From positions 1 to 43,631 of the forward strand of contig JAUZQM010000029.1 in NCBI GenBank assembly GCA_030950985.1: DNA of 43,631 bases, in the 5' to 3' direction. Positions within the stretch are counted from its first letter, which is position 1; the number at the start of each line of letters is the position of its first letter. Positions 6,913 to 32,577 of this stretch are shown here, piece by piece. The position numbers and the translations under genes were made by a program. The stretch comes from Mariprofundaceae bacterium. Lineage in GTDB: Bacteria; Pseudomonadota; Zetaproteobacteria; Mariprofundales; Mariprofundaceae. The notes beneath the pieces were generated by a model. It ran no database searches. It was not told the DNA's origin and was given only the letters and a program-made list of their open reading frames with translations.

Positions 6913-7063
6913 CTAATGTTACGCACACGCTCATTTCCGTGACTTTTAAACTGTATTGTCACCCTCGAGTGCTTGTGTCGAGGGTCTTTTGTTTCAAACA
7001 GTAGATCCCCGATAAAAGATTTTGGGGATGACGCGTTTTTTTCATCAATTCATGTTCCATTAG
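6913..7063. repeat. Degraded relative of the 200-bp MITE-like element
   Basis: Left end CTAATGTTACGCAC has 1 mismatch to the TIR CTGATGTTACGCAC. Right part GATCCCCGATAAAAGATTTTGGGGATGACGC matches the right hairpin of intact copies. Right TIR is poorly preserved and no TSD is visible. Confidence 0.6.
6961..6990 (+). terminator. Perfect 8-bp hairpin followed by CTTTT
   Basis: ACCCTCGA-(gtgcttgtg)-TCGAGGGT then CTTTT. Confidence 0.5.
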
Positions 7064-7140: not shown

Positions 7141-8811
7141 ATGGCAGATTATCAATACATCTATTCGATGGAAGGTGTCGGCAAAATTGTCGATGGTAAA
7201 AAGGAAATTTTAAAAGATATTTATCTTTCTTTTTACCCAGGGGCAAAAATTGGTGTCTTGGGGCTGAATGGTTCAGGAAAATCAACCCTACTTAAAATTA
7301 TGGCAGGTATTGATACTGATATTTTAGGCGAAGCACGACCAGCACCTCGTATTAACATTGGTTATTTATCTCAAGAGCCTGAATTGGATGAAAGCAAAGA
7401 TGTTCGTGGCAACATTGAAGAAGCTGTTCAACCCATGAAAGATGCTTTGACGGCATTGGATGAAGTCTATGCTGCTTATGCCGAACCAGATGCGGACTTT
7501 GATGAAATCGCCAAAAAACAAGCGTATTTAGAAGCCTTTATTGAAGCGGGTGACGGTCATAATTTAGATCGCAAACTGGGTATTGCTGCCGATGCCTTGC
7601 GTTTACCCGATTGGGATGCGGATGTAAGTAAACTCTCAGGTGGTGAACGTCGTCGTGTCGCTTTGTGCCGTTTATTACTTTCTAGCCCCGACATGCTTTT
7701 ATTGGATGAGCCGACCAACCATTTGGATGCTGAATCGGTGGCGTGGTTGGAACATTTTTTACATGATTTCACAGGTACTGTTGTTGCCGTCACGCATGAT
7801 CGTTACTTCTTGGATAATGTAGCAGGTTGGATTTTAGAATTAGATCGCGGTCGTGGCATACCTTTTGAAGGTAACTATTCATCATGGTTAGAACAAAAAG
7901 ACAAACGTCTATCCACAGAAGAAAAACAAGAATCGTCACGTCAAAAAGCCATCAAACAAGAATTAGAATGGGTGAGAGCAGGCAGTAAAGGGCGACATAG
8001 TAAATCAAAAGCACGCTTAAAAGCATTTGATGAACTTGCCAATGTCGATATACAAACACGCAATGCTACCAAGCAAATTTTCATCCCTGTTGCCGAACGT
8101 TTGGGCGATATTGTTATTCAAGCCGACCATGTAAAAAAATCATACGGTGATCGCATTTTATATGATGATTTGAATTTCAACTTACCGCGTGGTGGCATTG
8201 TCGGCGTGATTGGTGCCAATGGGGCAGGTAAAACAACCCTGTTTCGCATGTTAACAGGGGAAGAAAAACCCGATTCAGGCACACTCACTATTGGGGAAAC
8301 TGTTCAACTGGCTTATGTGAATCAATCTCGTGATGCTTTGGATGATAAAAAAACAGTCTGGGAAACTATTTCAGATGGGCTAGAGACCATCATGCTTGGC
8401 AATCAAGACATTGCTTCACGCGCTTATTGTGGTCGTTTCAACTTTAAAGGTGCCGACCAGCAAAAAACGATTGGCAATTTATCGGGGGGTGAGCGAAATC
8501 GCGTCCATTTGGCAAAAATGCTCAAAGAAGGTGGCAATGTATTGTTACTCGATGAGCCGACCAATGATTTGGATGTCGAAACATTACGCGCACTGGAAGA
8601 AGCTTTGCTTGATTTTGCAGGGTGTGCCGTCGTCATTTCTCATGACCGTTGGTTTTTGGATCGTATTGCCACACATATACTTGCATATGAAGATGAAGGA
8701 CATGTGGAATGGTTTGAAGGTAACTTTGCTGATTATGAAAAAGATAAAGAGCGCAGGCTTGGCAAGACTGCCAGTCAACCTCACCGCATGAAATACAAAA
8801 AAATTGTATAA
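7141..8811 (+). CDS. ettA: Energy-dependent translational throttle protein EttA (ABC-F)
   Basis: Two ABC domains, [64 protein letters not shown]; near-colinear with E. coli EttA from memory. Confidence 0.95.
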
Positions 8812-8815
8812 CTAT

Positions 8816-9015
8816 CTGATGTTACGCACGCCGTCATTCCCGTGGTCTTTTAATCGGGAATCTAGAAATTGAGAGCAATGAATGATTTAGGTTATAAATA
8901 TTGGCTTTTAAAATAGCCTTTTCACTAAATTTTAGAGCATTTATATTTTTCCATAGATCCCCGATAGAAGATTTCGGGGATGACGCTTCTTTTTCATTAA
9001 AGTGCGTAATATCAG
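8816..9015. mobile_element. MITE-like element, copy 1 (200 bp)
   Basis: TIR CTGATGTTACGCAC / GTGCGTAATATCAG (1 mismatch). Flanked by perfect 7-bp direct repeats TAACTAT (8809-8815 and 9016-9022). Internal hairpins ATTCCCG..CGGGAAT (8836-8861) and ATCCCCGA..TCGGGGAT (8957-8981). No coding capacity. Confidence 0.9.
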
Positions 9016-9069
9016 TAACTATTTTAAATATGCGTAAATTTAATACCTCAAAAGGGGAAGTATATTAAC

Positions 9070-22309: not shown

Positions 22310-23074
22310 ATGACAACGATTGAAAAACATCATTTTTCCAATGCCCACGGTGAACAACTGTCAGCACGTTTAGATATGCCAGATAATCCACCCCATGCCT
22401 ATGCTTTGTTGGTGCATTGTTTTACCTGCAACAAAAGTTTAAGAGCCGCAGCTTATATAACGAAAGCTTTGATTGCCCAAGACGTGGCTGTGTTTCGCTT
22501 TGATTTTACAGGTCTAGGTGATAGCGAGGGTGATTTTTCGGATACCAATTTCACCAGCAATGTTCAAGATATTATCAGTGCAGCAGGCTTTATGCGTGAG
22601 CAATCTTATGCACCTGATATATTGATTGGACACTCTTTGGGCGGTACGGCAGTGCTCAAAGCAGCAGGCTTGATTGAATCGGTGAAAGCAGTGGTTACGA
22701 TTGCCAGTCCTTCATCACCTGCGCATGTGGCAGCACAGTTTTCAGACGCTCAAGCGCGTATTCTTGAGCATGGTTCAGCTACAGTGGCATTGGCTGGGCG
22801 AGATTTCATCATCAAACAACAGTTTCTAGATGATTTACAAAAAACGTCCGTTTTGAACGATGTGGAAAACTTGAACAAGCCATTGTTAGTTCTGCATGCA
22901 CCTCGAGATAAAACGGTGGGGGTTGAACATGCCTCGATTATCTTTAAGGCAGCACAACATCCTAAAAGTTATATTTCCTTGGACGACTCAGATCATCTGT
23001 TAAGCCAAACTGCCGATGCCAGTTATGTAGGGAAAATCATTGCCGTGTGGGTGAGTCGTTATCTCGATGATTAA
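22310..23074 (+). CDS. Alpha/beta hydrolase
   Basis: LLVHCFTCNKSLRAAAYI, FDFTGLGDSEGDFSDTNF, ILIGHSLGGTAVLKAAG nucleophile elbow, LDDSDHLL. Confidence 0.88.
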   Translation: MTTIEKHHFSNAHGEQLSARLDMPDNPPHAYALLVHCFTCNKSLRAAAYITKALIAQDVAVFRFDFTGLGDSEGDFSDTNFTSNVQDIISAAGFMREQSYAPDILIGHSLGGTAVLKAAGLIESVKAVVTIASPSSPAHVAAQFSDAQARILEHGSATVALAGRDFIIKQQFLDDLQKTSVLNDVENLNKPLLVLHAPRDKTVGVEHASIIFKAAQHPKSYISLDDSDHLLSQTADASYVGKIIAVWVSRYLDD

Positions 23075-23274
23075 CTGATGTTACGCACGCAGTCATTCCC
23101 GTGATCTTTTAATCGGGAATCTAGAAAGTGAGAGAAATGAATGATTTATGTTATAAATGTTGGCTTTTTAAATAGCCTTTTGACTAAATTCTAGAGCATT
23201 CATCTTTTTTCAAAGATCCCCGATAGAAGATTGCGGGGATGACACTTCTTTTTCATTAAAGTGCGTAACATCAG
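23075..23274. mobile_element. MITE-like element, copy 2 (200 bp)
   Basis: Perfect 14-bp TIRs CTGATGTTACGCAC / GTGCGTAACATCAG, perfect 7-bp TSD TGATTAA (23068-23074 and 23275-23281). Same length as copy 1, about 16 substitutions by eye, no indels. Confidence 0.92.
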
Positions 23275-23302
23275 TGATTAAAAAATAGTTCAGGAGTATA
23301 CA

Positions 23303-24805
23303 ATGCAAGCATTATATCAAATATTTTCCGTGTTCGGTGTGTTCTTCATTGTTGTTATGGGTGTGTTGTTTTTATGGGGCATGCTGTTGTACATCATGGA
23401 TATTTCTCAACATAAACATGCCATTCGTCATAACTATCCTTTGATGGGTCGGTTTCGTAGCGGGTTTGAATATTTAGGCACGTTTTTTCGTCAATATTTC
23501 TTTGCTATGGATCGAGAAGAAATGCCCTTTAATCGCGCACAACGAGAGTGGATTTATAAAGCGGCGCAAAATGAAGATACGACATCTGCTTTTGGTTCAA
23601 CACGTGATTTAAGCCCTGTGGGCAGTATCTTTTTTGTAAACTGTCCTTTTCCTGCATTGGAATCCGATGCCGAAGACTTTCAAACTATTAGGCTTGGAGA
23701 GGGGTATTGTGAGCATCCTTTTGATGCAACAAGCCCATTTAATGTGTCAGGCATGAGCTATGGTGCGCTGTCTAAAGTCGCTGTACTTGCCTTATCCAAA
23801 GGTGCTAAAAAAGCAGGTTGTTGGATGAATACAGGTGAAGGCGGTTTATCACCTTACCACTTAGAGGGCGGAGCAAACCTCGTATTCCAAATAGGTACAG
23901 CTAAATATGGTGTGCGTGACAATGAAGGCAATTTAAGTGATGAAAAATTACGAGAAGTTGCAGCACATGAACACGTTAAAATGTTTGAAATTAAACTTAG
24001 TCAAGGTGCAAAACCCGGTAAAGGCGGCATGTTGCCTGCTGCAAAAGTGAGTGCTGATATTGCGAAAATTCGTGGTATTGAAGTCGGTCAAGATTCAATG
24101 AGCCCTAATCGCCATATTGATATTGATTCCGTCCATGACATTTTGGATATGATTGTTCGGATTCGACAAGTGACACAAAAACCTGTGGGCATCAAGTTGG
24201 TCTTGGGTGGTTGCAATGTGTTGGATGGTTTATGTGAAGCGATTCAACAACGTGGTTTAGATGCTGCACCTGATTTTATCACACTCGATAGTGCCGATGG
24301 TGGCACAGGCGCTGCGCCGCAAGCCTTGATGGACTATGTTGGCATGCCGTTATCAGAAAGTTTGCCCATGTTAATTGATCATTTGGTGGGTTATGGCTTA
24401 AGAGAACGGATTAAAGTGGTGTGTTCGGGTAAAATGATTATGCCTTCTGATGTGGCTTGGGCATTGGCAATGGGCAGTGATTTTGTGGTGTCGGCACGTG
24501 GGTTTTTGTTTTCTTTGGGCTGTATTCAAGCTTTGCAATGCAATAAAAATACCTGTCCAACAGGAATTACGACGCATAACCCTCGCTTACAAGCGGGCTT
24601 AGATCCCCAAGATAAATCGGTGCGTGTGGCACACTATGTAGATCATATTTTGCATGAAGTGGGTGTGATTGCACACTCATGTGGTGTGCGTGAACCGCGT
24701 TGTTTGAAACGTCATCATATGCGACGTGTGGATGCCAATGGACGTTCGATTAGCATGGCGAGTATTTTTCCTGATACAATGAAAGGTAAGCCTCATGGTT
24801 TGTAA
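23303..24805 (+). CDS. FMN-binding glutamate synthase-like family protein
   Basis: PFNVSGMSYGALSKVAVLALSKGAKKAGCWMNTGEGGLSPYH, SQGAKPGKGGMLP, SADGGTGAAPQALMDYVG, CNKNTCPTGITTHNPRLQAGLD; N-terminal TM. Confidence 0.92.
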   Translation: MQALYQIFSVFGVFFIVVMGVLFLWGMLLYIMDISQHKHAIRHNYPLMGRFRSGFEYLGTFFRQYFFAMDREEMPFNRAQREWIYKAAQNEDTTSAFGSTRDLSPVGSIFFVNCPFPALESDAEDFQTIRLGEGYCEHPFDATSPFNVSGMSYGALSKVAVLALSKGAKKAGCWMNTGEGGLSPYHLEGGANLVFQIGTAKYGVRDNEGNLSDEKLREVAAHEHVKMFEIKLSQGAKPGKGGMLPAAKVSADIAKIRGIEVGQDSMSPNRHIDIDSVHDILDMIVRIRQVTQKPVGIKLVLGGCNVLDGLCEAIQQRGLDAAPDFITLDSADGGTGAAPQALMDYVGMPLSESLPMLIDHLVGYGLRERIKVVCSGKMIMPSDVAWALAMGSDFVVSARGFLFSLGCIQALQCNKNTCPTGITTHNPRLQAGLDPQDKSVRVAHYVDHILHEVGVIAHSCGVREPRCLKRHHMRRVDANGRSISMASIFPDTMKGKPHGL

Positions 24806-32426: not shown

Positions 32427-32509
32427 ATCAACAAGTGAAATTGGGATGCTTTTCATCATGATATAAGTTATTGAAATCATTGCTGTTCCGTCTCAAAAGG
32501 GAAGCCATA

Positions 32510-32577
32510 AAAAAGAAACGTCATCCCCGAAATCCTTTATCGGGGATCTATGAGAAAATATGCATGATCTATAACGG
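32510..32577 (-). repeat. Truncated, inverted copy of the right part of the MITE-like element
   Basis: aaaaagaaacgtcatccccgaaatcctttatcggggatctatgagaaaatat aligns to the reverse complement of the 3' half of copy 1; the TIR is absent. Confidence 0.7.

Follow-up and report, generated by a model that had tools for sequence, protein, structure and literature searches.

The second of two related 200-bp elements (copy 2) in the 43,631-nucleotide stretch of DNA analysed here (the window) is, with high probability, a miniature inverted-repeat transposable element (MITE) that was mobilised in trans by an IS701-type transposase into a TTANTAA target. The observations that carry this reading are the ends of the element, its target-site duplications (TSDs) and their consensus, a family of relatives, empty sites in other genomes, a parent insertion sequence (IS) that shares its ends and target, and transposase fossils within the genome that harbours the window. 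Features of the window are listed in Table 1.

Table 1. Positions of the element copies, their parts and associated features in the window.
Feature	Position	Strand	Remarks
MITE copy 2 (subfamily B)	23075..23274	+	200 bp, without coding capacity
Left TIR of copy 2	23075..23088	+	CTGATGTTACGCAC
Right TIR of copy 2	23261..23274	-	perfect inverted copy of left TIR
Left TSD of copy 2	23068..23074		TGATTAA, in which TAA serves as stop codon for ORF 22310-23074
Right TSD of copy 2	23275..23281		TGATTAA
Left palindromic module	23095..23120	+	ATTCCCG...CGGGAAT, 7-bp stem; pairs with right module in long hairpin
Right palindromic module	23216..23240	+	ATCCCCG...CGGGGAT, 7-bp stem
MITE copy 1	8816..9015	+	same subfamily as copy 2; TSD TAACTAT at 8809-8815 and 9016-9022
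Upstream gene, alpha/beta hydrolase	22310..23074	+	intact despite copy 2 insertion
Downstream gene, glutamate-synthase domain (PF01645)	23303..24805	+	
Decayed remnant of related element	6913..7047 (right edge approximate)	+	one mismatch in left TIR; palindromic module retained; right TIR lost
Solo right-hand palindromic module	32507..32574	-	without recognisable TIR

Copy 2 lies within the length range of MITEs (about 50-600 bp) and has no transposase gene, and it combines terminal inverted repeats (TIRs), a TSD of fixed length, dispersed copies and ends that match those of a parent IS. Its assignment as a non-autonomous cut-and-paste element is thus supported. The TIRs match at 14 of 14 bp, and the interior is far below the size needed for a transposase gene. 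The length of exactly 200 bp, the perfect TIRs and the 7-bp duplication TGATTAA given in the initial annotation were all confirmed. Copy 1 has one mismatch in its TIRs, at element position 195. The two copies are equal in length, with no indel, and differ by exactly 16 substitutions (7 transitions and 9 transversions), where about 16 had been counted before. Also present in the window is a gene with a GmrSD-type restriction endonuclease domain (PF03235; 30627-32426).

The proposal that the element is a MITE and that its two copies transposed independently is supported by the family census, the TSDs, the empty sites of relatives and a parent IS whose ends and target are shared with the element. 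It is hardly credible that a single insertion instead gave rise to both copies through segmental duplication or recombination, without transposition. The copies do lie on the same strand of one contig, 14 kb apart, but segmental duplication is refuted by their unrelated 100-bp flanks (24% and 27% identity) and by their distinct TSDs. By p-distance, the element nearest to copy 2 (0.045) belongs to a different contig, C2, and copy 1 is farther off (0.080), which also argues against a segmental duplication, as do the empty sites carried by relatives. The copy-1 site is unoccupied in a close relative (G008), where it reads GTATAACTGCTTCAAATATG, with 94% identity across the joined 300-bp flanks. 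For copy 2, an empty locus with a single TGATTAA had been expected, and this was found only approximately: in the more distant G002 and G010 the site is unoccupied and consists of a single CGATTAA (flank identity roughly 70-78%), and in G008, the closest relative, the region is deleted. Near position 6797 of contig C33 of G008 (L262), the window interval ~22312-22682 (hydrolase gene) is missing, and the match ends after 22789.

The own genome of the window (G000) is a 1.75-Mb draft in 139 contigs. The TIR occurs in it 158 times at up to one mismatch; the reversed control pattern does not occur. The contig stretches of this genome that were examined hold at least 58 non-overlapping TIR-bounded elements, mostly 115-227 bp in length. 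Exact TSDs of 7 bp (20 elements) or 8 bp (8 elements) flank 28 of the 58, compared with a mean of 0.8 and a maximum of 5 when right flanks were shuffled, and exact duplications of 4, 5, 6, 9 or 10 bp are absent from all 58. Flank identity of 3 bp (8 of the 58) is at the chance expectation for AT-rich sites. In about half of the elements the exact TSD is gone. The TSD consensus is the palindrome TTANTAA, with T at position 1 in 19 of 20, A at position 3 in 17 of 20 and A at position 7 in 18 of 20.

Interior sequence divides the 58 elements into subfamilies of 35, 8 (including copies 1 and 2) and 4 members (115-129 bp) plus 11 singletons, a grouping that follows a loose criterion and may include chance TIR pairs among a few of the singletons. 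Some elements share the same ends but have differing cores. The 35 elements of the largest subfamily (L046-L105 of the own genome) are 137-207 bp long and have GGAAGTGCGGCTTTAGCCGC-type core palindromes, with TIRs as in copy 2. Two TIR-bounded elements (L080:2390-2813 and L191:1501-1888) retain one end of the parent IS and contain an internal palindrome of the GTTCCCACGC...GCGTGGGAACG type, suggesting capture of foreign repeats. No MITE match to copy 2 was found in plasmid and phage collections. We regard the family as new and well supported, although ordinary in kind, with the type of its parent IS identified.

When one strand of copy 2 is folded to minimum energy, a single long hairpin is predicted (z = -11). 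In this hairpin the TIRs pair with each other, as do the left and right palindromic modules; either module can also fold by itself. The earlier description of two hairpins that stay essentially paired thus applies to the 7-bp local stems, both of which are intact in both copies, but not to the predicted fold. None of the 16 changes between copies 1 and 2 falls in the 28 stem positions (P = 0.08), and in an alignment of eight copies pairing in the two local stems reaches 99%, with 12 of 14 pairs invariant. The compensatory stem changes that the initial annotation had proposed to look for do not emerge: there are none between copies 1 and 2, and the one pair with a double change in the eight-copy alignment is not beyond what shuffles give. 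The conserved pairing is real, and it points weakly to selection on pairing.

The palindromic module is present in three copies in G002, a genome with no TIR match, and thus may be an older repeat that was taken into the element. These TIR-free GTCATYCCCG modules, together with the presence of Y1 transposase genes in these genomes, fit a palindrome of the REP/REPIN type mobilised by a Y1 (RAYT) transposase, the TIRs being incidental. However, Y1 transposases are not known to make TSDs or to require TIRs, whereas 7/8-bp TSDs and 14-bp TIRs are common to the MITEs and the DDE IS, and such an origin of the element is very improbable. The palindrome modules alone could be RAYT-derived.

ORFs of 100 codons or longer contain 79% of the target-like sites but not one of the 38 elements that bear a TSD. 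The TSD overlaps a stop codon in 9 of the 38 elements, compared with 7.8% of target-like sites outside ORFs (P = 0.002), an enrichment that is suggestive only, because ORF calling was mechanical and slightly different overlap rules applied to elements and control sites. This placement and the very stable fold could reflect function if selection had kept the element behind stop codons to terminate transcription in both directions or to form an RNA structure. We consider this unlikely: TAA is already part of the target consensus, surviving insertions are those that spare genes, the element contains no terminator-like match, covariation in the stems is not above shuffles, and no Rfam match was found in the window. 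The element, read as a MITE mobilised in trans, is explicable without any host function.

An intact copy of the parent IS was identified in G070, a genome from another genus of the same family that contains 62 TIRs. This IS (L183:1501-2610) is 1110 bp long, with perfect TIRs the same as those of the MITE, the TSD TTAAAAA and a single ORF encoding a 354-aa transposase. The protein matches NCBIfam NF049921 (transpos_IS701_2; E 3e-104, 348.7 bits, cut-off 250) and Pfam DDE_5, and its score against NF033540 (89.8 bits) is under the cut-off of 150. It has a complete Y(2)R(3)E(6)K motif, YKKRWKVEVFHKNIK at residue 272. The IS4 family sensu stricto was also considered; the YREK motif is complete, but the scores of 95.7 bits for NF049925 (cut-off 250) and 35.5 for NF033592 (cut-off 115) fall below the respective thresholds. 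A PDB search gave no sequence relative of the transposase. The left end of copy 2 is identical to that of the IS over about 18 bp with one mismatch (CTGATGTTACGCACGCAG vs CTGATGTTACGCACCCAG). Beyond the TIR, the interior of copy 2 has no resemblance to the intact IS; thus, copy 2 did not arise from that IS by simple internal deletion. Also encountered in G070 was a 1661-bp TIR-bounded stretch (C6:129139-130799) in which reading frames belong to a second transposase-like gene, unrelated to the first; it may represent an IS that inserted into a MITE or into an IS relic. DDE_Tnp_1 (PF01609) was rejected as the parent: it has no match in the own genome, and matches in relatives have no adjacent TIR.

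In the own genome, only decayed fragments of the transposase were detected, several with stop codons. Identity reaches 73% (over 85 residues) in the best of them; weak matches (e.g., on C126) are possibly only partly related. One fragment lies within a TIR-bounded deletion derivative of 477 bp (L061:4517-4993, contig C33 of the own genome). Neither the own genome nor ten congeners yielded an intact transposase, the congeners giving at most short fragments or distant relatives, and no intact IS was found between distant TIR pairs within the own genome. The genomes searched are drafts, mostly incomplete, and multi-copy ISs are often lost from such assemblies; thus, extinction of the transposase in the own genome is likely, not proven. 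Movement there has presumably ceased, or depends on a transposase missing from the assembly.

Relatives of the parent IS on named plasmids have CTNANNTTACGCA ends and a single ORF and are mostly ~1.1 kb in length; one Piscirickettsia relative is 1.4 kb, with an interrupted transposase reading frame. Five of eight such relatives (two from Polaromonas and one each from Acinetobacter schindleri, Moraxella osloensis and Piscirickettsia salmonis) have an exact 7-bp TTANTAA-type TSD, the sequences being TATTTAA, TTACTAA, TTATTTA and TTATTAA. For IS701_2 (NF049921), annotated relatives occur on plasmids of Polaromonas, Moraxella, Acinetobacter, Piscirickettsia and cyanobacteria. Unlike these ISs, the MITE lacks a transposase and has a different interior.

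The classical IS701 family is 1400-1550 bp in length and makes 4-bp duplications (PMC2266710), whereas the parent is 1110 bp with a TSD of 7 or 8 bp, and so departs from the family in both respects. ISAba11, an IS701-like element of Acinetobacter (1101 bp), is similar in length to the parent and has a transposase of the same superfamily, and one 60%-identical relative of the parent is annotated as 'group ISAba11'. However, annotated ISAba11 transposases share about 27% identity with that of the parent, and ISAba11 makes 5-bp duplications (PMC7885321), compared with 7 or 8 bp in this family. Given these published rules, the IS701 label derives solely from the transposase. Possibly, the parent lineage (~1.1 kb, CTNANNTTACGCA ends, 7-bp TTANTAA TSDs, complete YREK, filed as IS701_2) forms an IS group of its own, between IS701 and IS4, that spread through distant bacteria and left dozens of MITEs here, with interiors derived from unrelated palindromic repeats and not by IS deletion, a tentative proposal that we lean slightly against.

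Among known MITEs, QMITE2 of Coxiella burnetii (about 190 bp, with TIRs, 7-9 bp direct repeats, a strong fold and overlap with gene 3' ends; PMC5896051) resembles copy 2 in its described features. MITEAba12 of the Moraxellaceae was assigned to its parent ISAba12 through a common TIR and TSD length (PMC6382973); that pair differs from the present one in its 16-bp TIR, 9-bp TSD and parent.

We infer that an IS701-type transposase moved these copies. The DDE transposase of an IS of ~1.1 kb would recognise the 14-bp ends of copy 2 in trans and cut an AT-rich site of TTANTAA consensus with a 7-bp (sometimes 8-bp) stagger. The element would then be joined to the cut target, and gap repair would duplicate the target. 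At the copy-2 site, the target TGATTAA would have included the upstream gene's stop codon, and the insertion thereby left that gene whole.

In summary, these results describe an unannotated MITE family that is tied to a parent IS through its ends, target and fossils. ISs filed as IS701 that make 7-bp duplications clash with the published 4-bp rule of that family. A TTANTAA target that tends to fall onto stop codons helps to explain how many copies of the element persist without gene breakage.
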